From Lachnospiraceae bacterium (GTDB lineage Bacteria > Bacillota > Clostridia > Lachnospirales > Lachnospiraceae), in the NCBI GenBank assembly GCA_910573755.1, contig CAJTBO010000024.1:1-64000 (forward strand): a stretch of 64,000 bases of DNA. Direction: 5' to 3'. The number at the start of each line of letters is the position of its first letter. The stretch's first letter is position 1. The notes below the pieces were generated by a model. That model did no database searches. It was given only the letters and a program-made list of their open reading frames with translations, and was not told the DNA's origin. Shown in pieces: positions 11,355 to 56,286 of the stretch. Position numbers and translations under genes: made by a program.

Positions 11355-13448
11355 TTACCTCTCTTCTGTAAATTCAACTGTTCTTTCTATTGTCTTATCT
11401 GTCGTACTCCCCGGTGAGGTTTCGACTGTCTCTCCGGTCTCCGGATCTTTTGTCGTCACAGGTTCCGTTATATTTGTGTACCGGAAGGTGATCTTCCCCG
11501 TGGAAGATTTGATACCAGTATAATTCACCGCGATCGGGAAGGAAGCCGTCTCTGTATCCAAAAGCTTTGTACCGTCAGCCGTCACGATGGTCACTTTCAC
11601 CTTCGTACCGTCCTTGTACTCCGGATCTTCCGCCGCAGTGGGTCCTGTTATATTCCCGCTGTAACTGTAGGTCGCCGCCTTGCCGCCCATACTGATCTTA
11701 ATATCGATAGGCGTACCGGGATCTACAAAGGAGCCCACGGAATAACTCTGGTAGCATACCTGTCCCTCCGGGAAATCCTCGCTGTTCATCTCTCCTACCG
11801 TGCCGAGCTGCAGTCCTGCTTCGATCAGCATCGCCACAACCTCATCCTCCTCCCGTCCCATCAGATCCGGCACCCGGATCTTGGAATCCTCCGCTCCGGT
11901 GCTGACTACGATCGTCACCGCGGAGCCCTTCGGCGCCTTTGTGCCGCTCTCGGGATTCTGGGAGATCACGTAGCCTGTCTCCACCTCGGAAGAGGCGCTC
12001 TCGCTCCGGTTTACCACAAAACCCGCTTTTTCCAGCGTATTTTTTGCCTCCTCATAGGTGATCCCCGTGGCCTTCGGTACAGCTACACCCTCGGTACCGC
12101 TGCTGACGGTCAGCGTGATCGTCGTGCCGGGATCTACCATAATGCCTTCCTCCACCGATGCACTGATCACCTGATTCTGCGGATAGGCGGCGTTCTCCAC
12201 GTATTTCACTTCTGTTTTCAGCCCCTTCTTCTCCAGACGGTCCTGCGCGGTTTTCACCGCCATACCGATGACATCTATCATCTCTACCTGCTCGGTCTGC
12301 TCCTCCTGCTGCGTCTCGTCGTCCCTGCTGCCGCTTAAGTGGAACAACCCTAAAGCCCTGCCCACTAATACGATCACAATGCAGCCGATGATGATTGCCG
12401 CAACAATGGCAAGTATGGTCGTAATCTTTTCCATCCGGGGATCATAATCCTCTTCGTAATCTTCTTCCTCTTCCCCTTGGTCCGTATGTTTTACTCTGTT
12501 TAACCGCATGGACTCTTCCATATTGTCCTTTGCCGCGGAGACCTTTTTGATCCGCTCCATCTCCCGCTCCGTGATCATGCGGGTGGACGCCTTTCTGTCC
12601 GGCTCCATAACTTTCACAAAATCCTCATCGGGATTTAACAGGGACTGTTTCAGATCATCGATCAGTTCCGCCATGGACTGATACCTGCGGTCGGGGCTTT
12701 TCTGGCAGCATTTAAAAACGATCTGTTCCACGCTGACCGGAATTTCGGGCACATATTCCCGGGGCGAAGGCATCTCTTCCTGAATATGTTTAATGGCGAT
12801 CGCCACGGTCGTCTCCCCGTTAAAAGGCACCCTGCCCGTGAGCATTTCAAACATCGTGATGCCAAGGGAATAAATATCGCTCTTTTCGTCACTGTAGCCG
12901 CCCCTTGCCTGCTCCGGCGACGTATAATGGACCGATCCCATCACATTGGAAGTGATGGTATTGCTGGTGGCGGCTTTTGCAATGCCGAAGTCCGTCACCT
13001 TCACTTTCCCCTCTTTGGAGATCATGATATTCTGAGGCTTGATATCCCTGTGGATGATATGATTATTATGGGCAGCCTCGATACCCATGGAAACCTGAAT
13101 GGCAATGCTTATCGCCTCTTTTACGGAAAGTCTCGCCTTCTTTTCAATGTACTTTTTCAGTGTAATGCCCTCTACCATTTCCATGACGAAATAGTAAATG
13201 CCGTTTTCTTCCCCTACATCGTACACATTGACGATATTGGGATGCATCAGCCCTGCCGCCGCCTGGGCCTCCGTCCGAAACTTGGAAACAAAATTGGCGT
13301 TCTCGGAAAACTCCTGTTTTAATACCTTGATCGCCACAAACCTGTTGAGTTTATGGCATTTTGCTTTATAGACATCTGACATGCCGCCGGTTCCGATCTT
13401 CTCAAGAATCTCGTAGCGGTCTCCTATCATCATTCCGATCTTAATCAT
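11355..13448 (-). CDS. prkC: PASTA-domain Ser/Thr protein kinase (PrkC/PknB type)
   Basis: This membrane kinase senses muropeptides or cell-wall state and phosphorylates cytoplasmic targets. The 697-residue protein has a kinase domain (GTGGMSDVYKAK at about 19, VAIKVLK, HRDIKPQNIM, DFGIAKA), a juxtamembrane linker, one membrane helix (ITTILAIVAAIIIGCIVIVL) and at least three PASTA repeats ending near the C-terminus, plus a short extra domain. I chose ATG 13448 (MIKIGMMIGDRYEIL) because homologues begin just before the DRYEI strand; an upstream ATG overlapping the prpC stop is possible. It is coupled to the phosphatase gene upstream. Confidence 0.93.
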   Translation of the reverse strand: MIKIGMMIGDRYEILEKIGTGGMSDVYKAKCHKLNRFVAIKVLKQEFSENANFVSKFRTEAQAAAGLMHPNIVNVYDVGEENGIYYFVMEMVEGITLKKYIEKKARLSVKEAISIAIQVSMGIEAAHNNHIIHRDIKPQNIMISKEGKVKVTDFGIAKAATSNTITSNVMGSVHYTSPEQARGGYSDEKSDIYSLGITMFEMLTGRVPFNGETTVAIAIKHIQEEMPSPREYVPEIPVSVEQIVFKCCQKSPDRRYQSMAELIDDLKQSLLNPDEDFVKVMEPDRKASTRMITEREMERIKKVSAAKDNMEESMRLNRVKHTDQGEEEEDYEEDYDPRMEKITTILAIVAAIIIGCIVIVLVGRALGLFHLSGSRDDETQQEEQTEQVEMIDVIGMAVKTAQDRLEKKGLKTEVKYVENAAYPQNQVISASVEEGIMVDPGTTITLTVSSGTEGVAVPKATGITYEEAKNTLEKAGFVVNRSESASSEVETGYVISQNPESGTKAPKGSAVTIVVSTGAEDSKIRVPDLMGREEDEVVAMLIEAGLQLGTVGEMNSEDFPEGQVCYQSYSVGSFVDPGTPIDIKISMGGKAATYSYSGNITGPTAAEDPEYKDGTKVKVTIVTADGTKLLDTETASFPIAVNYTGIKSSTGKITFRYTNITEPVTTKDPETGETVETSPGSTTDKTIERTVEFTEER

Positions 13449-13498
13449 ACTTTTTCTTTTCTCCACATTCAAGCTTCGCTGCAAAAGCGAGGCATACA

Positions 13499-14227
13499 TC
13501 AAATATCCGGCTCGATCAGTATCAGGGATATATTATCCCTTCCGCCGTTCAGGTTTGCAACTCTCACAAGAGCCTCCGCTTTTTCCATGATGTCGCGCTG
13601 GGCATTTACGATCATTCTTATTTCTTCATCTTCCAGCATATTACTGAGTCCGTCAGAGCACAGCAGAACAATGTCCCCCTCCCGGAGCTGTACCTCATAA
13701 AAATCCGCCAGCACCGCATGGGTAACTCCTACCGCTCTTGTAATAATATTCTTATTAGGATGGGTCCTTGCGCTTTCCCTGTCAAGTCCGCCCATCCGGA
13801 TCATTTCCTCTACAAGGGAGTGGTCCGTCGTGATCTGCCGGATACTTTTTCCGTTCACGATATAAAGACGGCTGTCTCCCACATTGCCTACTTTCAGGCA
13901 GTTTCCGTAGATCGTCGCAACAACCACCGTAGTCCCCATGCCTTCCAGGTCACGGTTCCCATTGGAAAGTTCAAAAATACCGGCGTTCGCTTTATCGATC
14001 GCGCACTGCAGAATCTTCTCCGGACTCTCCTCCGGGGAATGCTCCGCCTCCTGACAAATGGTGTCCACCGCATAGCGGGAAGCATAATCCCCCGCTTTAT
14101 GGCCGCCCATACCGTCGGCAATCATAAACAGATTCGGCAGATTTCCCACCGGCAGTTCCGAGGAATACACCACATCCTGATTCAGTTGTCTTCGTTTCCC
14201 CTTATCCGATAAGGAGGCTGTCTTCAT
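13499..14227 (-). CDS. prpC: PP2C-family Ser/Thr phosphatase (PrpC/Stp)
   Basis: It removes phosphates added by the adjacent PASTA kinase. The 242-residue protein starts MKTASLSDKGKRRQLNQD and carries PP2C motifs: DKGKRRQLNQD, IADGMGGHKAGDYAS, GMGTTVVVA, GNVGDSRLYI, TTDHSLVEEM, LLCSDGLSNML and GGRDNISLILI, with metal-binding Asp residues present. The open frame extends 24 codons upstream but without family similarity. It precedes prkC, with the stop region abutting the kinase frame. Confidence 0.93.
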   Translation of the reverse strand: MKTASLSDKGKRRQLNQDVVYSSELPVGNLPNLFMIADGMGGHKAGDYASRYAVDTICQEAEHSPEESPEKILQCAIDKANAGIFELSNGNRDLEGMGTTVVVATIYGNCLKVGNVGDSRLYIVNGKSIRQITTDHSLVEEMIRMGGLDRESARTHPNKNIITRAVGVTHAVLADFYEVQLREGDIVLLCSDGLSNMLEDEEIRMIVNAQRDIMEKAEALVRVANLNGGRDNISLILIEPDI

Positions 14228-47005: not shown

Positions 47006-47905
47006 ATGTGCAGACGTTTATCCATCTATTTTAAAGAAATGTACCCAATCCTGCCGCGGTTCGCTTTAGGGCTGATCATATTCGGGGAAATTCATTTTAT
47101 CATCCTGTTAAATGCAGGCATCCGGGATTTCAGGCTCGGCATACAGGAACTGATCGGCGGTTTCACCGTGTTCAGCTTTCTCCTATGGCTCAGAATCGCC
47201 GACGATTTCAAGGATTACGAACTGGACTGCCGCCTGTTCGCGGACAGGCCCCTTCCCTCGGGGCGGGTACATAAAAAAGACCTTGCCATCTTTGTGACCG
47301 CTCTGATCGCCGTTACTGTGCTGCTGAACCTTTTTTTCATGAATAATTTCGGATTTTTCCTGTTTCTGTATATTTACGGAACACTGATGTCTCTCTGGTT
47401 TTTCAGCAAGAAAAAGATCCAAAAAAGCCTTCCTTTAGCGCTTATCACCCACAATCCGGTGCAGATGATCATGAATATCTATATCATCTCCTTCACCTGC
47501 TTTAAATACGAACTGCCGCTTTTCACCTTTGTCAATTTCCTCGCCGCCTGGACGCTCTATTTTCCGGCGCTGATCTGGGAAATCGCAAGGAAGATCCGCG
47601 CGCCGAAGGATGAAACGGAATATGTGACCTACTCCAGACTGTTCGGATACAAAAAAGCGACTCGGTTTATCCTGATCATCACCTGGGTGGATATCATCAC
47701 AAACTTCCTGCTTGTATGGCATTTAAATAAACTCACGGTTCTGGCGCTGTTTCTGGATGTGTCATGGATGAGTATAAAATTTTTACAGTTTATGAAAGAT
47801 CCGACGAGATTCAAGATCGTTGAAAAAGTGGAACGCTATACCTATATTCAGGAATCGCTGATGCTGCTGACAATACCGGTTTATCTGATTTTCGGCGCCA
47901 TATAA
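47006..47905 (+). CDS. UbiA-family membrane prenyltransferase-like protein
   Basis: The 299-residue protein starts MCRRLSIYFKEMYPILPRFA and has about eight membrane helices. The loop LRIADDFKDYELDCRLFADR contains the Asp-rich D-D-x-x-D-x-x-x-D motif of UbiA enzymes, but the second Asp motif is weak (APKDETEYVTYSRLFG). AAAAGGAG precedes ATG 47006. The substrate (quinone, lipid or other) cannot be told; it has no pathway neighbours. Hairpin-forming GC-rich sequence follows the stop (GCCGG/CCGGC). Confidence 0.72.
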   Translation: MCRRLSIYFKEMYPILPRFALGLIIFGEIHFIILLNAGIRDFRLGIQELIGGFTVFSFLLWLRIADDFKDYELDCRLFADRPLPSGRVHKKDLAIFVTALIAVTVLLNLFFMNNFGFFLFLYIYGTLMSLWFFSKKKIQKSLPLALITHNPVQMIMNIYIISFTCFKYELPLFTFVNFLAAWTLYFPALIWEIARKIRAPKDETEYVTYSRLFGYKKATRFILIITWVDIITNFLLVWHLNKLTVLALFLDVSWMSIKFLQFMKDPTRFKIVEKVERYTYIQESLMLLTIPVYLIFGAI

Positions 47906-48045: not shown

Positions 48046-48786
48046 TTAACCAAATACCAGACTGCACACCAGCATACTCACCGGCTGGTGGATCAGATAA
48101 ATCCAGATCGTCCTGCTCCCAATAACAGATAAGACCGGAACCTTAAACCGGGCCGCAGCTTTCCATGTGTCATGCTCCCTGAATATTCCATTGAAAAAAT
48201 AACCGCACAGGTACAGAAACATCCACGGGATCATCGGAAAATAGTCGCTTGACTTAAAACCGGGAAAAGGAAAACCAAACGGTGTCAGAATCTTTATGGA
48301 ATAGAATACTGCCGGAACCTGTATACCGCCCCCAATCCCGATATAGCCATGCTGTATCTGCCTGCAAAGGATAAACAGCACAAAACAGATTCCCAAGCCA
48401 AAGGCCGGAGAGACTTTCTTTACCAGCTTCCGGAGCGGGAACATCAGCAGAACCGCACATCCCATAAAATTCAATATCCCGAACCATATGGTTTCCGACG
48501 GGATGACGATAAGGGTGACAAGCGAAATAATAAAGCCATACAGATTAAAACGCAGGCCGCGCCGCAGGTTCCCCTCCATCCCCCACTGCCATACAAATCC
48601 CGAAATGAAAATAAAGGTCTGGCAGATCATCTGCTGCCAGATGCGGATTGCAGGAAGTCCATACCAAAGCGGGTCCTTCCCATAGACAATAAATACATCA
48701 TACAAAAAATGAAATACCGCCATGTTGACAATGGCAGCACCCCTGATACCGTCAACCAGATAATACCGTTTTTTCTGCGCCTCCAT
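48046..48786 (-). CDS. DUF1624/HGSNAT-like membrane acyltransferase
   Basis: The 246-residue protein starts MEAQKKRYYLVDGIRGAAIV and has the heparan-N-acetyltransferase catalytic-domain pattern: YYLVDGIRGAAIVNMAVFHF, IFISGFVWQWGMEGN, SDYFPMIPWMFLYLCGYFFN and a WIYLIHQP end, across about seven membrane helices. GGAG lies 8 bases upstream of ATG 48786. Relatives modify cell-surface sugars; the target is unknown. It is next to the agr-type genes on the same strand. Confidence 0.82.
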   Translation of the reverse strand: MEAQKKRYYLVDGIRGAAIVNMAVFHFLYDVFIVYGKDPLWYGLPAIRIWQQMICQTFIFISGFVWQWGMEGNLRRGLRFNLYGFIISLVTLIVIPSETIWFGILNFMGCAVLLMFPLRKLVKKVSPAFGLGICFVLFILCRQIQHGYIGIGGGIQVPAVFYSIKILTPFGFPFPGFKSSDYFPMIPWMFLYLCGYFFNGIFREHDTWKAAARFKVPVLSVIGSRTIWIYLIHQPVSMLVCSLVFG

Positions 48787-48947
48787 AAACATTACTCCTC
48801 TCCAGACATGATTCATGTTTTCAGCATAGCAGATAGTTCCCTCCATGACGGCACCTTGTAAAAATGAAACGTTTGCAGGTAAAAAATAAGAAGTCCGGAA
48901 TATTCTGCCGGACTCCCTGCTCGCTATATATCGCATATAAAAGAAAA

Positions 48948-50033
48948 TCATTCTGTATCTGCATCTTCCAAAAACAGGAGGACATTTGCCTGGAACTCCC
49001 CATCCCGGACCTCTGCCGTCAGGCTTCCATGATACTTCTCCGCAATCCTCCGGATATTTTTCAGCCCAAACCCATGCTCCTTGGAAGCCCCGGATGTCTG
49101 CCCTTTCCCGGAACAATTATTCCGCGTGCTGATGCAGAGGATGCCCCGGTCATATTTCATCATGATGTGGAATGCCGGTTCCGTTACATCCGTCAGGGCA
49201 TTCATGGCATTTTCAAACAGGTTGCTTAAGATCACATTGATGTCAAAAACAGGGATTCCCAGATGCTCCGGAATCCGGATTTTCCAGGAGACATCAACGC
49301 CTGAATTCTTTGCTTTTGAGATCATGTAATTCAGAATACTGTCAATCTTTTCGTTCCCGGTGGCGACATATTCCCCGCTGTTCTCCATAAACGCCCCCAT
49401 AGACGCAAGGTACTTGAGCGCCTCTTCGTTTTCCCCTCCGGACACCATATCCGTGAGCATTTTTATGTGATGCTTCATATCGTGCTTCAAGGCGCGGATA
49501 TTATGCTGCGACTGCCTTATGATGTCGAACTGGTTCTCATAGATGCGGACCTCCTGCTCCAGCAGTTCGCGCTCCCGTTCCTGCCGGGATTTCCCCGCTT
49601 TCTCCAGAATCATCTCAAAAGCAAAAAACAAACTGACCGAAATGGATGTAACGATGAAATACCGGCGGCTGTCAGCAACCGTTTTAAAAAGAACAGACGC
49701 AATGCTCCATTTCCCGATCCAGTATACCGCGGGGAGGATAACCGCCATCAGCAGACGCCGTGCCGCTTTGCCCTGGTAACAGAAAGACATTGCTGATAAA
49801 AACGGAATCTCTGCCAGCAAAAAGAACAGGTCCATCACGGCAATTCCCTGCCCGATATAGGAAACGCTTATGAGAAAGCCCTCAAATATCCACAGCACTG
49901 TAAAGAGGGCTGTCACAATTTTCCTGGAAACCCTGCACTTTCCAATGCAGGCGGAAAAACAGCGCATATAAAGGCAGATACGGACTGCCGCCAGTATGAT
50001 GACAAGACTTTTCACGACAGACACCTGCCTCAC
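48948..50033 (-). CDS. GHKL sensor histidine kinase (AgrC/ComD-like)
   Basis: The 361-residue kinase has five or six N-terminal membrane helices, a coiled segment (RQERERELLEQEVRIYENQF), the conserved H-box SQHNIRALKHDMKHHIKMLT and a GHKL ATPase domain (NVILSNLFENAMNALTD, GFGLKNIRRIAEKYHGSL). Such kinases pair with LytTR response regulators and often sense peptides. It directly follows the 5'-deleted regulator gene (stop/start overlap). No peptide precursor or processing protease is seen nearby. Confidence 0.88.
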   Translation of the reverse strand: MRQVSVVKSLVIILAAVRICLYMRCFSACIGKCRVSRKIVTALFTVLWIFEGFLISVSYIGQGIAVMDLFFLLAEIPFLSAMSFCYQGKAARRLLMAVILPAVYWIGKWSIASVLFKTVADSRRYFIVTSISVSLFFAFEMILEKAGKSRQERERELLEQEVRIYENQFDIIRQSQHNIRALKHDMKHHIKMLTDMVSGGENEEALKYLASMGAFMENSGEYVATGNEKIDSILNYMISKAKNSGVDVSWKIRIPEHLGIPVFDINVILSNLFENAMNALTDVTEPAFHIMMKYDRGILCISTRNNCSGKGQTSGASKEHGFGLKNIRRIAEKYHGSLTAEVRDGEFQANVLLFLEDADTE

Positions 50034-50696
50034 CCCCTTTGATACCTTTCCGTTAAATTTTCTTTCATTGCCTTCCGGTACTTCTGGCTGATCGGCAGGC
50101 GCGTGCCGTCCGTCATCTGAACAAAGTCATAATGATAAACCGAAACAAACGCTGTGTTTACGATATAGGATTTATGGATGATCCAGAAGCCTTTTCCCTC
50201 CACCTGCTCCCATACCTCCCGCATGGCACCGTAAAATTCCTTCTGTCCCGAACCGGTATATATTTCAATTTTCCTGCCATTGCAGGCAAAGTAATGTATC
50301 TCGTCCAGATACAGCCTGCAGACCGATTTCCCCGCATGATAATAAAATTCATTTTTATTGGCTTCGCTCAGCCGTATGAACTGCTCCAATACCGCATCCA
50401 CTTTCTCTTTGGTGAGCGGCTTGATCAGGAAGTCCAGAGGACGCACCTGGAACAGGCTCATAGCATAGGTTTCTTTAGAAGAAATATAAACAATGCTGAT
50501 CTTATCGTTTCCAAGCTGCTCCCTGATCTGCCTGCCGACCTGCACGCCATCCATCTCCAAAAGCTGGATATCCAGAAAACACAAGTCATACAGGCACTGC
50601 TCCTGAATGGAACGGTAAAATGCCTCCCCGGAATAGAAGACTTCCGTTTCAGTTCTGCCACCTCTTTCCTTTTTCTGCCCTTAAACATTCATACAT
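50030..50696 (-). pseudogene. LytTR response regulator with deleted 5' end
   Basis: Residues from EVFYSGEAFYRSIQEQ onward match a LytTR response regulator: LCFLDIQLLEMDGVQ with the phospho-acceptor Asp, then the DNA-binding domain (CNGRKIEIYTGSGQKEFYGA, YDFVQMTDGTRLPISQKYRK). The ribosome site and ATG at 50696 survive, but after a few codons the frame is wrong, and the first 30 or so residues with the acidic Asp pair are absent. The coding frame has a stop just upstream and no start except a late TTG. The regulator is probably non-functional while its sensor is intact. Confidence 0.7.
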
Positions 50697-51138: not shown

Positions 51139-51167
51139 TTGTGATCCGGCCGGTTGTGTGCTATAAT
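51139..51167 (+). promoter_or_regulatory. Sigma-A promoter of the ATP-grasp/ligase/GNAT operon
   Basis: TTGTGA (51139-51144) and TATAAT (51162-51167) are 17 bases apart and 90 bases upstream of the first start codon. No operator or riboswitch was recognised in the leader. Confidence 0.7.
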
Positions 51168-51256: not shown

Positions 51257-53743
51257 ATGATCCTGACGCCGGAAAATTACAGAACAACCGAATTAAGTAC
51301 AAAAGCCGCAAATCTGTTTCTGCTCGCAGAAGCAGGTTTCAGCGTGCCGCCATTTTTCTGTGTTGATGAAACCTTCTCAGAGGAGGAAGTCCTCTCATAC
51401 CTTGCGCGGCATTTTCCGGATACCCTCTTGTTTTCCGTCCGCTCCTGCGCCTCTCTGGAAGATTCCGCAGACCGCTCCTTCGCGGGAGCGTTCCGCACCT
51501 TTCTGCGGGTGCCGAAGGAAGAAGTCTGCGCCCGCATCCGGGATGTGCTCTCCAATGCAAAACACCCGGAAAATATCTCCTACTGTCTGGCCCATCACCT
51601 TGATCCCGCCTCCCTGCGGATGCATGTGATCATACAGGAAATGATCGAATCCGATCTCTCCGGCGTCCTGTTTACTGCCAATCCGCAGGGGCCCCTGAAC
51701 GAATCCGTTATCGTCTGCGGAGCAGGAACCGGCGATCTTGTTGTGGAGGACAAAACAGATACCACAACTTACTACTACCATCTTACCGACAAAGTTTTTT
51801 ATTATGAACAGACCGGTTCCTCTCCGCTTTTATCCAATGGACAGGTAGATGAACTGATCCGTTTATCCCGGAAAATAAAAGAACAGATACGCTCATCCGC
51901 AGCCCCCGCCTCGCAGCCCCGAAAATCCGGAACGGTTTCCCGGCGGATAAAAAAGCGCTCTCCCTGCAAAAGCAGCGGCAAACTCCCCCCGGAGTTCGAC
52001 ATTGAATTTGCGGTAAAGGAAGATACTCTTTACATCCTGCAGGCGCGTCCGATCACTGCCTTACATTATGACGCACCTGTCATTATTTTGGACAACAGCA
52101 ATATCGTGGAAAGCTATCCCGGCGTCACCCTGCCGCTGACTAAGAGTTTCATTCAGGAAGCCTACTATCAGGTTTTTAAAAACCTGCTGCTCCGTCTCAC
52201 CGGCGAACCGGGCAGCGTCGGCAAGATCGACGACACTCTGCGGCATATGGTGGATGCGGCAAACGGACGCATTTATTACCGCATCAGCAACTGGTACGAC
52301 GTACTGCTCTTTCTGCCTTTCTGCAGCCGCCTGATTCCGATCTGGCAGGAGATGATGGGAATAAAAGACAGGACTGTCAGTTCCGGTATGGAAGGAGGAA
52401 TCCGCCGGAGCACACGGCTGAAAACAGCCCTCTCTTTCTTCCGTCTTCTGCGCACCTGCCCGAAGGAAATGGATAAACTGGATCTGTACTTTCAAAAGAT
52501 CATCGGGCGCTTCGACGCACTGGATCTGGACACGGAAGATAACCGGGTACTGCTTTCGCACTACCGTTCCCTGCAGGATATGACCGTAAAACGCTGGGAC
52601 ATGACCCTTGTCAACGATATGTACGGTTTTCTGTTCACCGGACTTTTAAAAGCCCGGCTGAAGGCAAAACATGTTCCCGATCATGAGCTGGCGGCAAACC
52701 GCGCCATCTCCGGCATTCAGAAACTGGAGAGCATGCGCCCGGTACAGGAACTTCAAAAACTGGCTCTGCAGGCAAAAGGGGAAGGCATGCTTGCGGAATT
52801 ACAGGCGATCGACAGCAATGAAGCGTATTTTCAGTATGTCGGGAATAACAGCCCTTTTTCCCTGCGCATGCAGGAGTATATCCGAAACTTCGGGGATCGG
52901 AATGTGGAAGAGCTGAAACTGGAAAGCAAAACCTTCCGCACAGATCCGGTACTGCTGATCCGGTGTATTTTGCAGTATGCCGAAACGCTTTCCGCGCCGC
53001 CCGGCCATTCCCCGGAAAACGCCGCGCTCCCGCACCTTACCGGCCTTTCCGCCTTTTTTGCCAAAAAGGCGGCCGCAGGCATCCGCAACCGGGAAAAATC
53101 CCGCTTAAACCGGAGCCGTCTCTACGGTATGATGCGCACTCTTGCCCTGCGGATGGGAGAAAACCTCTGCAGACAGAAAAGGCTCGCGCAGCCGGAGGAT
53201 ATCTTCTGGCTCTACTGCGAAGAAATAGAAGCCGCCTCTTTTGATCCGGCTTTCTGCCCCGCGGACATCATTGCCGGACGCAAAGAAGAATACAGGGGTT
53301 TTTCCGCTCTCCCCGCCTACTCCAGACTGATCTTCTCCGAAAAGATCACGGATAAACACCCGAAACAGAGCGGCAGAAAATGTTATGGTGCGGCAGAGGG
53401 CGCCTATACGGGCACCGCCTGCTCCTTCGGCGTTGCGGAAGGCGAAGTGCTGCTCGTCGATACCCCTTCCCTGCAGCTTGACACAAAGGGAAAGATCCTT
53501 GTCACAAAAATGACTGATCCCGGCTGGGTGTTCCTGATCGCGCCGGCTAAAGCCATTGTTTCAGAAAAGGGCTCTCTCTTGTCCCATACGGCGATCATCT
53601 CAAGGGAACTCGGGAAACCTGCCGTGACAGGCGTTGAGCATATTACGGAATATCTGAAAACAGGAGACCGGGTTCGGGTGGACGGAAATACGGGAACCGT
53701 AACGCTTCTGCCCGCCGCGCCGCCTCCGCCCTGCCATAAATAA
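51257..53743 (+). CDS. PEP-synthase / rifampin-phosphotransferase-like enzyme
   Basis: The 828-residue protein has an N-terminal ATP-grasp half (NYRTTELSTKAANLFLLAEA, SVRSCASLEDSADRSFAGAF, VIIQEMIESDLSGVLFTANP, YILQARPIT) and a C-terminal swivelling His domain (VTKMTDPGWVFLIAPAKAIV, then GSLLSHTAIISRELGKPAVT with the phospho-His), separated by about 430 residues of helical substrate-binding region. That order matches rifampin phosphotransferases rather than classical PEP synthase, which has a C-terminal PEP-binding barrel. An odd basic insertion (SRRIKKRSPCKSSGK) sits before the DIEFAV strand. It probably transfers a phosphate from ATP to an unknown small molecule. Confidence 0.8.
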   Translation: MILTPENYRTTELSTKAANLFLLAEAGFSVPPFFCVDETFSEEEVLSYLARHFPDTLLFSVRSCASLEDSADRSFAGAFRTFLRVPKEEVCARIRDVLSNAKHPENISYCLAHHLDPASLRMHVIIQEMIESDLSGVLFTANPQGPLNESVIVCGAGTGDLVVEDKTDTTTYYYHLTDKVFYYEQTGSSPLLSNGQVDELIRLSRKIKEQIRSSAAPASQPRKSGTVSRRIKKRSPCKSSGKLPPEFDIEFAVKEDTLYILQARPITALHYDAPVIILDNSNIVESYPGVTLPLTKSFIQEAYYQVFKNLLLRLTGEPGSVGKIDDTLRHMVDAANGRIYYRISNWYDVLLFLPFCSRLIPIWQEMMGIKDRTVSSGMEGGIRRSTRLKTALSFFRLLRTCPKEMDKLDLYFQKIIGRFDALDLDTEDNRVLLSHYRSLQDMTVKRWDMTLVNDMYGFLFTGLLKARLKAKHVPDHELAANRAISGIQKLESMRPVQELQKLALQAKGEGMLAELQAIDSNEAYFQYVGNNSPFSLRMQEYIRNFGDRNVEELKLESKTFRTDPVLLIRCILQYAETLSAPPGHSPENAALPHLTGLSAFFAKKAAAGIRNREKSRLNRSRLYGMMRTLALRMGENLCRQKRLAQPEDIFWLYCEEIEAASFDPAFCPADIIAGRKEEYRGFSALPAYSRLIFSEKITDKHPKQSGRKCYGAAEGAYTGTACSFGVAEGEVLLVDTPSLQLDTKGKILVTKMTDPGWVFLIAPAKAIVSEKGSLLSHTAIISRELGKPAVTGVEHITEYLKTGDRVRVDGNTGTVTLLPAAPPPPCHK

Positions 53744-53776
53744 CATAACCGTCTCAAATCAACCGGAAAGGAATCT

Positions 53777-55213
53777 GTGATCATAATGAAATGCATCTGT
53801 GAATATCTGGAAGAAGACTACATAAAATGGGCGGACCGCCCCTATATCAGCACAAAGGAAAACGGAACCTGGCACTCCCGCACCTTCCGGGAGACCATCG
53901 ATGATATCCGGAATCTCTCGAAAGCCCTTCTGGAAAGAGGGTTTGAGGATAAGAACCTGATGCTCTGTTCCGAAAATTCCCGGGAATGGATTCTTTTATA
54001 CTTTGCCGTCATGGGGTATGTGGGCACCTGCGTACCCGTGGACAGGGAATGGACTGCCTATGACATCCAAAATACCTTATCAGCCATTCCGGTTTCCGCC
54101 GTTTTTTATTCCCGTTCCCGGAAAGAAAGGTTTCTGTCTCTGCAAAAGCAGTATCCCGATATCTCCCTGTTCTGCATAGAGGATATTTTATCTGATCTGA
54201 TACAGGAGGGAAAAGCTTCTCCTCTTCCCCTGCCCGGCAGAACCCGCCCGGATGAAACCGCCATGATCCTGTTTACCTCGGGCACCACCAATATTCCGAA
54301 AGCGATCCCGCTGACACAGGAAAACCTGTTTGCCAACTGGGACACACTGTACCGGCGCACCCCCATGACCGAACAGGATATCTCCTATGTATTCCTGCCC
54401 TTCCATCATGTCTATACCGGCGTGGCAAATATCCTGTATACCATTGTCTCCGGCATGCAGCTCTTTCTCTGCTCCGGCTTAACATACCTGATCCCGGAAC
54501 TGATGGAAGTACGCCCCACCGTTGTCTGTATGGTTCCGCTGTTTTTATACCGGATACAGGAAGCCGTAAACGACGATCTTATGGACGTACTGCGAAACAT
54601 CCGTTTTCTCTACTGCGGCGGCAGTTTTACAGATCCTGCGGTCAAAAAATATTTTATCGATCAGGGTGTCTGCCTCTTGGAAGCCTACGGCACCACGGAG
54701 ACTTCCTCTGTGATCGCCCTCGCCCTTCCCGGCGATCCTGACCTCGCCGCAAACGGCGTCGTCTTTGAAAACCTGAAGGTACAGATTCTTGATCCGGATG
54801 AAAACGGCGTGGGAGAGATCGTTGTTGCCGGAAATAGCGTTTCCGCCGGCTATTTAAACCGGAATGACCGCTACTCCGAATTTGACGCGGACGGATACCA
54901 TACCGGAGATCTGGGCGTTCTCTCCCCGGACGGACATTTGTATCTGAAGGGCAGAAAAAAACGGATGATCCTGACTGCCAACGGCAAAAATGTCTATGTG
55001 GATGAACTCGAAGCACTGCTTATGCAGCATCCCCGGATCAGGGCGGCTGTGGTCTTTGAGGAAGACCATCACCCCGCCGCCTCCCTCACCTGCAATTTAA
55101 CAGAAGATGAAATGCAGGATTACCTCGCTCAGGTCAACGACAGGCTGCCCGGCTATAAACAGATCCGCCGATTTTATATAAAACCTGATATTCCCGGAGG
55201 ACGTATTAAATGA
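53777..55213 (+). CDS. AMP-binding adenylate-forming enzyme
   Basis: The 478-residue protein belongs to the acyl-CoA synthetase/adenylation superfamily: A3 motif LFTSGTTNIPKAIPLT, A5 EAYGTTETSS, A7 DADGYHTGDLG, A8 LKGRKKRMILTANGKNVYVD. The usual catalytic Lys of A10 (SGK) appears as GGRIK at the very C-terminus, with Arg in the Lys position. The start can be GTG 53777 or ATG 53786. It is 33 bases after the ATP-grasp gene and overlaps the GNAT gene by ATGA. It would activate a carboxylic acid; the acid and the acceptor are unknown. Confidence 0.85.
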   Translation: MIIMKCICEYLEEDYIKWADRPYISTKENGTWHSRTFRETIDDIRNLSKALLERGFEDKNLMLCSENSREWILLYFAVMGYVGTCVPVDREWTAYDIQNTLSAIPVSAVFYSRSRKERFLSLQKQYPDISLFCIEDILSDLIQEGKASPLPLPGRTRPDETAMILFTSGTTNIPKAIPLTQENLFANWDTLYRRTPMTEQDISYVFLPFHHVYTGVANILYTIVSGMQLFLCSGLTYLIPELMEVRPTVVCMVPLFLYRIQEAVNDDLMDVLRNIRFLYCGGSFTDPAVKKYFIDQGVCLLEAYGTTETSSVIALALPGDPDLAANGVVFENLKVQILDPDENGVGEIVVAGNSVSAGYLNRNDRYSEFDADGYHTGDLGVLSPDGHLYLKGRKKRMILTANGKNVYVDELEALLMQHPRIRAAVVFEEDHHPAASLTCNLTEDEMQDYLAQVNDRLPGYKQIRRFYIKPDIPGGRIK

Positions 55214-56286
55214 ACTATAAAGCGATCACCTTTTCCTGTCAGGATAAAGATTCCGTTCAGAAGTTTCTGGAACTTCCCGGGCGGCTCTATTCCAAAAAAG
55301 AACTCATGCAGCAGCCTGAGGAAGAACGGAAAATTCTGGAAGGCACTCATGTATTGAGCCATTATTTCACTGTTTTTCCGCTGCTTGTCCTTAACGAACA
55401 AAACGTCCCCGTAAGCCGTGCGGCCCTGACTGTCTATCCGGAAGATACAGACGCTTATCTGGGCTTTTTTGAGAGCGAAAACGATCCAAAAGCCGCTTCT
55501 CTTCTGATAAAAGAAGCCGAAAAGATCGCCGTAAGCCAAAACTGCACAAAGATCACCGGTCCCATCGACGCTTCTTTCTGGATTCGCTATCGCTTTAAAA
55601 GAAACTGTTTTGACCATTCCTACACCGGGGAACCTTACAACAAGGACTACTACGCCGCCTTATGGCAGAAGGCAGGCTTTGAAATCGCGGAGCGCTACTA
55701 CTCCAACCACTACCGGAAAGTAAAGCCTTCTGACAAAAACAGCCTCTTTTCCGCCAGACTTGCCCAAAAGCGGCAGGAAGGCTACCGGATTGAAAGCCCT
55801 TCCAAAGATACCTTTGATAAAACCCTGATCGAAGTTTACGAACTCCTGATCGAGTTATACCAGAGTTTCCCAGCCTATAAACGCATCAGCAGGGACGAGT
55901 TTGTCTCTCTTTACAGTTACCTGAAACTGCTGATCCGGTATCCCATGGTGAAGATGGCTTATTATCAGGGTAAGGCTGTGGGCTTTTTTATCAGCATTCC
56001 CGATTACGGAAACGCTGTTTACGGAAAGCTGTCCCTTCCTGATTACCTGCGCATTCTCCGTATCCGCACCATGCCAAAATCCTATGTCATGCTCTATATG
56101 GGCATCGACGCCGCCCATCACGGACTTGGAAAAGCCCTGGCGGAATCCATTAAGGAAGAACTCCAGACTGCGGGCGTTCCTTCTGTCGGCGCCCTGATCC
56201 GCCACGGAAATATCAACAAGGATTATTTCCATGAACTGATCGATTATGAGTATGAGTATGTGCTGCTCCGCAAGTCTCTCGTATGA
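55210..56286 (+). CDS. GNAT-superfamily protein of the unknown-product operon
   Basis: The 358-residue protein has a first half with SRAALTVYPEDTDAYLGFFE and AEKIAVSQNCTKITGPIDAS, and a second half with AVGFFISIPDYGN, MLYMGIDAAHHGLGKALAES (acetyl-CoA-binding-loop-like) and a YEYEYVLLRKSLV end, the layout of long GNAT proteins seen near fatty acyl or peptide-like pathways. GGAGG precedes the ATG, which overlaps the ligase stop. It probably transfers the acyl group made by the ligase, or acts on its product. Confidence 0.75.
   Translation: MNYKAITFSCQDKDSVQKFLELPGRLYSKKELMQQPEEERKILEGTHVLSHYFTVFPLLVLNEQNVPVSRAALTVYPEDTDAYLGFFESENDPKAASLLIKEAEKIAVSQNCTKITGPIDASFWIRYRFKRNCFDHSYTGEPYNKDYYAALWQKAGFEIAERYYSNHYRKVKPSDKNSLFSARLAQKRQEGYRIESPSKDTFDKTLIEVYELLIELYQSFPAYKRISRDEFVSLYSYLKLLIRYPMVKMAYYQGKAVGFFISIPDYGNAVYGKLSLPDYLRILRIRTMPKSYVMLYMGIDAAHHGLGKALAESIKEELQTAGVPSVGALIRHGNINKDYFHELIDYEYEYVLLRKSLV

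Follow-up and report, generated by a model that had tools for sequence, protein, structure and literature searches.

A dikinase, ligase and acyltransferase operon of a Lachnospiraceae bacterium as the probable core of an unassigned lipid pathway

What might a dikinase of the rifampin phosphotransferase (RPH) type, an acyl-adenylating ligase and a GNAT-like acyltransferase make together? The question is raised by three consecutive genes, here called PEPS, AMPL and GNAT, at positions 51257–56286 of the window, a stretch of 64,000 nucleotides of contig CAJTBO010000024.1 in the Lachnospiraceae bacterium assembly GCA_910573755.1. A sequence-only reading had described them as an operon that might make a modified metabolite or inactivate an antibiotic. 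Comparison with other genomes narrows the modified metabolite to a specific proposal, a lipid: on balance, the three genes probably follow UbiA in a core of four genes (UbiA-PEPS-AMPL-GNAT), and the operon probably builds the core of a lipid that is still unassigned. Gene content, gene order, co-occurrence and the conserved active-site residues are directly established.

The gene row, its UbiA partner and their distribution

The three open reading frames (ORFs) are intact in the window and lie on the forward strand. PEPS (51257..53743; 828 aa) is an RPH-type dikinase by its Pfam domains, with ATP-grasp, substrate and C-terminal phospho-His swivel domains; AMPL (53777..55213; 478 aa) matches Pfam AMP-binding; and the GNAT-like acyltransferase gene (55210..56286; 358 aa) is recognized from a weak Pfam match, its conservation and its conserved position. 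The tight packing described previously is present, with a PEPS-AMPL gap of 33 bases counted from GTG 53777, or 42 bases from ATG 53786, and an ATGA overlap of AMPL and GNAT at 55210–55213. ATG 53786 is the likelier AMPL start, because the sister proteins begin at the equivalent of AMPL residue 4. The sequence-only reading had been staked beforehand on the gene order being conserved in related genomes, and it is: nine genomes of the genus were searched, and all six that carry the genes have the order PEPS-AMPL-GNAT, so the arrangement is not due to chance. The other three are without the genes, in assemblies that are 85–95% complete.

The genes of the three-gene set are real and consecutive, but its extent was drawn too narrowly, as a UbiA-superfamily membrane protein gene (47006..47905, forward strand; 299 aa) belongs to it as well. 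The protein scores 449 bits against the NCBIfam model PRK13592, "prenyltransferase" (cut-off 443), and 30.1 bits against Pfam UbiA, under the cut-off of 34.2. In five sister loci (L019–L023) UbiA immediately precedes PEPS; only in the window genome, among the six compared, do three opposite-strand genes (48046..50584) separate the two. DNA similarity to the sisters stops at the UbiA stop codon and restarts about 16 bases before the PEPS start, showing that the spacer itself is not conserved, and the split is either an insertion or a rearrangement.

Searching 98 relative genomes with the GNAT, PEPS and UbiA proteins gave GNAT matches in 12, two of which (G047 and G093) are weak and without UbiA. 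PEPS matches longer than 400 residues occur in 10 genomes, the rest of the 48 with PEPS matches having shorter ones only, most of which fall in the widespread His or ATP domain; UbiA was found in the same 10 genomes, with the window match at 47006–47902. The cassette is patchy, since a phylum-wide sample of 398 genomes yielded only the window's own (E 1e-8). Names on cassette-bearing gut records include Ruminococcus, Roseburia, Oribacterium and Acetatifactor.

A search of 84,980 species genomes with a UbiA alignment confirmed 370 stretches (tblastn E up to 1e-3), and the best 80, chosen by UbiA, were read with flanks of up to 10 kb. The counts that follow were made by tblastn and are approximate, owing to contig ends and a redundancy filter; they supersede ORF-based counts (DgkA 47, CarS 58, PSD 39), which missed genes overlapped by over-long ORFs, such as CarS in L142. 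For PssA-like the ORF-based count was the higher one, 31 against 29, which also makes the counts approximate. Among the 80 loci PEPS is present in 79, GNAT in 72, CarS-like in 67, DgkA in 61, phosphatidylserine decarboxylase (PSD) in 39, PssA-like in 29, AMPL in 24 and a second dikinase, PEPS2, in six. The identities of CarS, CDP-OH-PT, PSD and DgkA were confirmed by Pfam on chosen members, and further neighbour genes were compared as clusters. PEPS is the next cassette gene after UbiA in 75 of the 80, the exceptions being four loci with PEPS upstream (L101, L139, L143 and L144) and L141, where the contig ends. The commonest order is DgkA-CarS-UbiA-PEPS-GNAT (23 loci), followed by DgkA-CarS-PssA-PSD-UbiA-PEPS-GNAT (15) and UbiA-PEPS-AMPL-GNAT (9), the last being the clade of the window's sisters; a further locus, L180, has CarS-UbiA-PEPS-GNAT. 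Eleven loci hold UbiA-PEPS with GNAT, nine of them also with AMPL, and no CarS, DgkA, PssA or PSD nearby.

Between them, DgkA, CarS, PssA and PSD could take a lipid alcohol through every step to a phosphoethanolamine lipid. CdsA was found in all 12 cassette genomes tested, and in 11 of them a CarS-type enzyme lies in the cassette besides; because the ordinary CdsA is present too, CarS looks dedicated to another lipid. PSD was searched for in nine cassette genomes outside the genus, and in four (G083, Roseburia inulinivorans, Streptococcus ferus and Lachnoanaerobaculum orale) it was found only in the cassette, while Pseudobacteroides has one copy there and one elsewhere. Within the genus it occurs in five of the six cassette-bearing genomes and in none of the three without the cassette. 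The window contig itself has a PssA-like and PSD pair at G000:C24 about 72218–73692 (L165 10219–11693), about 8 kb past the window end, adjoined by a gene that we take to encode a DedA-type membrane protein.

None of the 80 loci has both DgkA (61 loci) and PEPS2 (six), and PEPS2 adjoins CarS where DgkA is missing. The five PEPS2 loci with a full PEPS all fall in one six-row clade, whose sixth row (L133) has neither gene, and in the sixth PEPS2 locus (L141) the contig ends; since the PEPS2 loci in the tree are confined to one clade, the exclusion is perhaps one event, not repeated evidence of replacement. Pairwise protein distances correlate with r of 0.70–0.94 in 27 of 28 comparisons, the remaining one being CDPOH against AMPL (0.46, six loci).

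A homologous branch, here type B, was found in two genomes of the window's taxonomic order (L028 and L062/L026) and on the Roseinatronobacter plasmid NZ_CP121116.1, of an alphaproteobacterium; this plasmid was the one record with the cassette in the plasmid collection. Type-B loci encode homologues of all four core proteins, together with DUF3419, which we take to be the BtaA domain, and a membrane protein that to us resembles phytol and dolichol kinases in its motifs and has no significant Pfam match. A VTE5-VTE6 fusion was considered for the latter and dropped, as Pfam gave no support. The six genes have one order on the plasmid and in L028, and the L062/L026 genome has its GNAT and AMPL as a pair about 35 kb from the rest. 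With the search-space size set by hand, BLAST of the window proteins against type B gave E values of 1e-77 to 1e-94 for PEPS, 1e-8 to 1e-12 for both UbiA and GNAT, and 1e-5 to 1e-10 for AMPL. Among 146 relatives of G084 a strong type-B UbiA occurs only in G084 and G074, four other matches being type A or weak. No PSD was found in the two type-B genomes searched, and the annotation of L170, the one type-B locus in which BtaB was looked for, does not include it in its 12 features. In L062 UbiA and PEPS are separated by a condensation-domain protein of the non-ribosomal peptide synthetase type (12277–13608; PF00668, E 6e-13).

Active sites of the core proteins

PEPS has the Pfam domains PPDK_N (aa 45–271) and PEP-utilizers (aa 744–813 of 828), with no match to PEP-utilizers_C or any third domain in the Pfam scan. 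The resulting order, ATP-grasp, substrate domain and C-terminal phospho-His domain, is that of the RPH-type superfamily. Conservation was read from 76 rows, namely the window and the 75 loci whose PEPS ORF reaches 650 aa, shorter ORFs being dropped. The predicted catalytic phospho-histidine His777 (53585..53587, forward strand), 51 residues from the C-terminus, is His in 75 rows and a gap in the remaining one. Arg612-Glu613...Arg616 (53090..53104, forward strand), kept in 76/76 rows, align through PDB 5fbs with Arg666-Glu667...Lys670, the phosphoryl-transfer residues of RPH according to passages of PMC4844700. The Listeria enzyme's Arg117, Thr136, Glu297 and His825 correspond to R62, T81, E250 and H777, and its Lys670 to R616, an Arg here; R62 and E250 are also kept in all rows, and T81 is nearly invariant in 41. 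The counterpart of RPH Lys22 is K16 (76/76 rows), assigned through the GxK motif, as the alignment stops short of it. PEPS thus carries the catalytic residues of the superfamily, and the description of it as rifampin-phosphotransferase-like holds: domain order and residues are those of RPH, not of PEP synthase.

The nearest solved structure by profile is Listeria RPH (5fbs; 275 bits), matched in two stretches that cover the ATP-grasp domain and then the end of the substrate domain with the His domain; for about aa 275–490, where the substrate domain opens, there is no PDB match. At the start of the domain stands a family signature, DNSNIVESYP (aa 279–288; 52091..52120, forward strand), in which D279, S281, N282, I283 and E285–P288 are identical in all 76 rows, and three type-B PEPS proteins read DNSNI[VA]ESY there. 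The likeness to the RPH superfamily (HpeHI, CreHI and PpsAB) thus extends to domain order, the Arg/Thr/Glu, Arg-Glu and His residues and an expected conversion of ATP to AMP and Pi, but PEPS differs in its coupling to UbiA, its own signature, the unmatched segment and its score against the RPH model NF041857, 166 bits where the cut-off is 999. In passages of PMC4844700, distant RPH relatives with the Arg-Glu pair are anticipated to retain general phosphotransferase activity on other substrates, and another dikinase with a new role has been described (PMC13400623, in part).

PEPS shares the ATP-grasp and phospho-His domains with PEP synthase and PPDK, but in these the His domain is central and a pyruvate/PEP barrel forms the C-terminus, whereas the His domain of PEPS is C-terminal. 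A role as housekeeping PEP synthase was discounted on that ground, on a score of 143 bits against the pyruvate, water dikinase model TIGR01418 (cut-off 739.75), and on a tree of 30 dikinases in which the genome's presumed PPDK does not group with PEPS, a placement made weak by long branches. Firm clustering with housekeeping PEP synthases, which would have counted against the sequence-only reading, was accordingly not seen. In this tree the PEPS proteins linked to UbiA fall into one clade (95/96) whichever branch they come from, separate from PEPS2 (100/100). Public models name UbiA "prenyltransferase" and PEPS "phosphoenolpyruvate synthase"; against the latter, PRK06241.2-3 (cut-off 850), PEPS scores 748 bits and its Pseudobacteroides homologue (L113) 930, so the family sits in the database under that name, very probably a misannotation.

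Several dikinases depart from this pattern. A second, very divergent PEP-synthase-like protein of about 780 aa (G000:C12 about 88763–91102; L030 6764–9103), distinct from the presumed PPDK, attaches basally to the PEPS clade, but support is low (80/73) and its branch very long (5.65). At L025 (9853–11493) PEPS is without the ATP-grasp domain, keeps the His domain and adjoins a complete PEPS2, and it may be fed in trans; two-component dikinases of the superfamily that phosphorylate phenols offer a precedent (PMC12167813, in part). In the draft of Roseburia inulinivorans DSM 16841, PEPS is broken into three ORFs (L129 10905–13020), a true lesion or a sequencing error.

UbiA has the motifs RIADDFKDYExD and ExxRKx[RK][AS]P. 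Its first Asp motif, D66-D67-F-K-D70-Y-E-x-D74, has the superfamily form (N/D)DxxDxxxD in 79/79 type-A rows, D67 being Glu in three type-B proteins, and is followed by R[PA]LPSG. These features, DDxxDxxxD followed by RPLPSG and a weak profile match, are shared with the UbiA superfamily (PRK13592, chlorophyll synthase, DGGGP synthase), but the second motif, DxxxD, is absent. The ND of chlorophyll synthase aligns with R195-K196 in 79/79 rows, giving R195-K196-x-R/K198 with E203, in a register that is uncertain because the match to solved structures is weak (E about 4e-4). Judged by its residues, the replaced motif may point to an unusual donor or to a partner that is anionic.

AMPL matches Pfam AMP-binding with E 3e-52. 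In 24 aligned rows, the window and the 23 loci whose ORF reaches 430 aa, the P-loop [TS]SGT[TS] is present in all, as is a Lys at or beside the C-terminus, which we infer to be the A10 Lys; the protein thus has the hallmarks of an ANL enzyme. GNAT matches Pfam Acetyltransf_1 weakly (E 0.0079; 16.9 bits, cut-off 20.7), and its profile finds among structures only a chance-level match to a designed protein (E 0.6). A 70-row alignment shows the conserved motif GP[IVL]xxSxW...EP and a GLGK at aa 305–308, of which G305 and G307 are kept in 70/70. A link of GNAT to bacterial ceramide synthase, a double GNAT, and to fatty-acid-amide clusters of gut bacteria is conceivable. In G093, where UbiA of the cassette family was not found, a distant GNAT relative lies in a cluster (L027 4842–12347) of what we take to be radical-SAM/B12-like proteins.

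The proposed lipid pathway and its alternatives

That the product is a lipid, and with it the acceptors and the order of steps, we infer from these observations. AMPL would activate a fatty acid, and GNAT would move the acyl group onto an amine or hydroxyl. PEPS would use ATP, by way of phospho-His777, to phosphorylate, possibly pyrophosphorylate, a hydroxyl of a lipid or lipid precursor, and UbiA, which most likely uses or feeds the PEPS product, would join the parts within the membrane. The lipid alcohol would then, in most relatives, be phosphorylated by DgkA, or perhaps by PEPS2, and CDP-activated by CarS, and in many a PssA-like enzyme would add serine and PSD decarboxylate it to a phosphoethanolamine lipid; the type-B branch would instead use the BtaA-like DUF3419 protein and a putative CTP-lipid-kinase-like protein. 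Members of the window's clade have neither CarS nor DgkA as a neighbour. The three chemistries foreseen by the sequence-only reading, namely phosphoryl transfer, acid activation and acyl transfer, are supported as likely, the first by the domain order and RPH residues of PEPS. Within a lipid pathway, consecutive action of UbiA and PEPS is the best-supported step. More tentatively, and we would not bet on it, UbiA-PEPS-GNAT(-AMPL) may be the core for an undescribed class of bacterial membrane lipid, in which a UbiA with an altered donor site acts on a substrate that an RPH-type dikinase has phosphorylated or pyrophosphorylated, and head groups are exchangeable: phosphoethanolamine in gut Clostridia and a streptococcus, or a homoserine type in other relatives and an alphaproteobacterium.

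The four activities of the CDP-alcohol phospholipid pathway (DgkA, CdsA/CarS, PssA and PSD) are encoded together in many relatives; the cassette differs in having CarS besides CdsA and one order with UbiA-PEPS-GNAT, and in the window none of these genes is beside the operon. BtaA is presumably a betaine-lipid head-group enzyme, and its domain, DUF3419, is found in the type-B loci L028, L062 and L170, but here it sits with UbiA, PEPS and the putative kinase, plus GNAT and AMPL in L028 and L170. Searches of the open-access literature, where absence is not proof, found no description of the cassette by title or abstract; other UbiA and GNAT lipid neighbourhoods have been described, the present cassette not being among those in the passages concerned (PMC12419801). 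If the proposal is true, a family that many gut bacteria carry under a central-metabolism annotation is a lipid kinase, these bacteria make a membrane lipid so far not assigned to genes, RPH-like dikinases of unknown substrate gain a substrate class, and the CarS-type enzyme besides CdsA is explained.

Several observations weigh against the lipid proposal. The window's genome, the twelfth tested for CdsA, is the one in which no CarS was found, and as no head-group gene is adjacent either, its link to lipids runs through relatives only. The 23 loci of the commonest order have neither PssA nor PSD nearby, two of the 80 are UbiA-PEPS alone, and AMPL is absent beside 56. G097 and Oribacterium G102 have PSD outside the cassette only. 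Prenyl transfer by UbiA is not assured, because RK replaces its second Asp motif, and the AMPL homology between branches is maybe superfamily kinship, since the L113 protein matches type-B ligases with E of only 0.002–0.08. The distance correlations reflect joint inheritance in part, species relationships contributing too.

Could the locus simply make phosphatidylserine and phosphatidylethanolamine, through DgkA, CdsA, PssA and PSD, with UbiA, PEPS and GNAT as unrelated passengers or central metabolism? The cassette PSD, as the sole one found in four of the nine genomes, may make ordinary phosphatidylethanolamine there, and in the window genome the PssA-PSD pair lies apart from the operon. We nonetheless consider this unlikely, because no other pair is as constant as UbiA-PEPS, which 11/80 loci have without phospholipid genes, PEPS does not have the PEP-synthase domain order, CarS is additional to CdsA in 11/11 genomes, and the DUF3419 branch keeps UbiA-PEPS-GNAT-AMPL with none of these phospholipid genes beside it. 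Equally improbable to us is that PEPS acts as a PigC/RedH-like ligase, condensing a phosphorylated partner into a non-lipid secondary metabolite, the phospholipid genes being neighbours for another reason. Its scores of 160 (PigC) and 140 bits (RedH) are about as high as for RPH, the L113 protein reaches 218 and 217, and the condensation-domain protein of L062 would fit, but the scores are far under the cut-offs (1300 and 1350) and DgkA/CarS adjacency is widespread.

An operon that inactivates an antibiotic or toxic small molecule, in which PEPS phosphorylates as RPH does rifampin and GNAT or AMPL modify further, would agree with the domain order and catalytic residues common to PEPS and RPH. 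We now regard it as very improbable, given the RPH score noted above, the lipid-synthesis neighbours over the 80 loci and the coupling of PEPS to an integral-membrane UbiA. No defence model matched PEPS, AMPL or GNAT, and a role in anti-phage defence was discounted for the same reason. In addition, passages of PMC4844700 report that distant RPH relatives keep Arg-Glu and lose most rifampin-contacting blocks, and that one from C. difficile conferred no resistance. Of similarly slight probability is a route to archaeal-type isoprenoid ether lipids, with UbiA as DGGGP synthase followed by CarS, archaetidylserine synthase and a decarboxylase. The CarS-like protein does match PF01864 and the archaeal CDP-archaeol model (74 bits, cut-off 148), the L113 PssA-like protein scores higher against archaetidylserine synthase (69.9, cut-off 240) than against pssA (60.9, cut-off 107), and the UbiA profile weakly matches DGGGP synthase 6m31. 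These NCBIfam scores are nevertheless below cut-off, UbiA is without the second Asp motif, and no full GGGP synthase (PF01884) was found in 17 genomes, two of which have short matches (46–51 of 226 positions), one at the cut-off once in-frame neighbours are added. To our knowledge, the archaeal ether-lipid route has no dikinase, GNAT or AMPL. Archaeal-type lipid genes do occur in FCB bacteria, and passages of PMC7852524 give it as an assumption that UbiA homologues of DGGGP synthase in bacteria function otherwise.

Upstream of PEPS, a consensus scan places a sigma-70-like promoter with an extended -10 at 51139..51167 on the forward strand (TTGTGA-17-TATAAT, with TG preceding the -10; 10/12 matches). 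The "one good promoter" of the sequence-only reading is thus a good consensus match, but the scan finds 20 sites in 10.5 kb where shuffled sequence would be expected to give 14.5, and we therefore take the site as a match to the consensus and not as evidence of function. The three genes between UbiA and PEPS lie outside the system and encode a GHKL histidine kinase, a LytTR response regulator and a membrane protein; the product of 48046–49116 is presumably an acyltransferase-like membrane protein.

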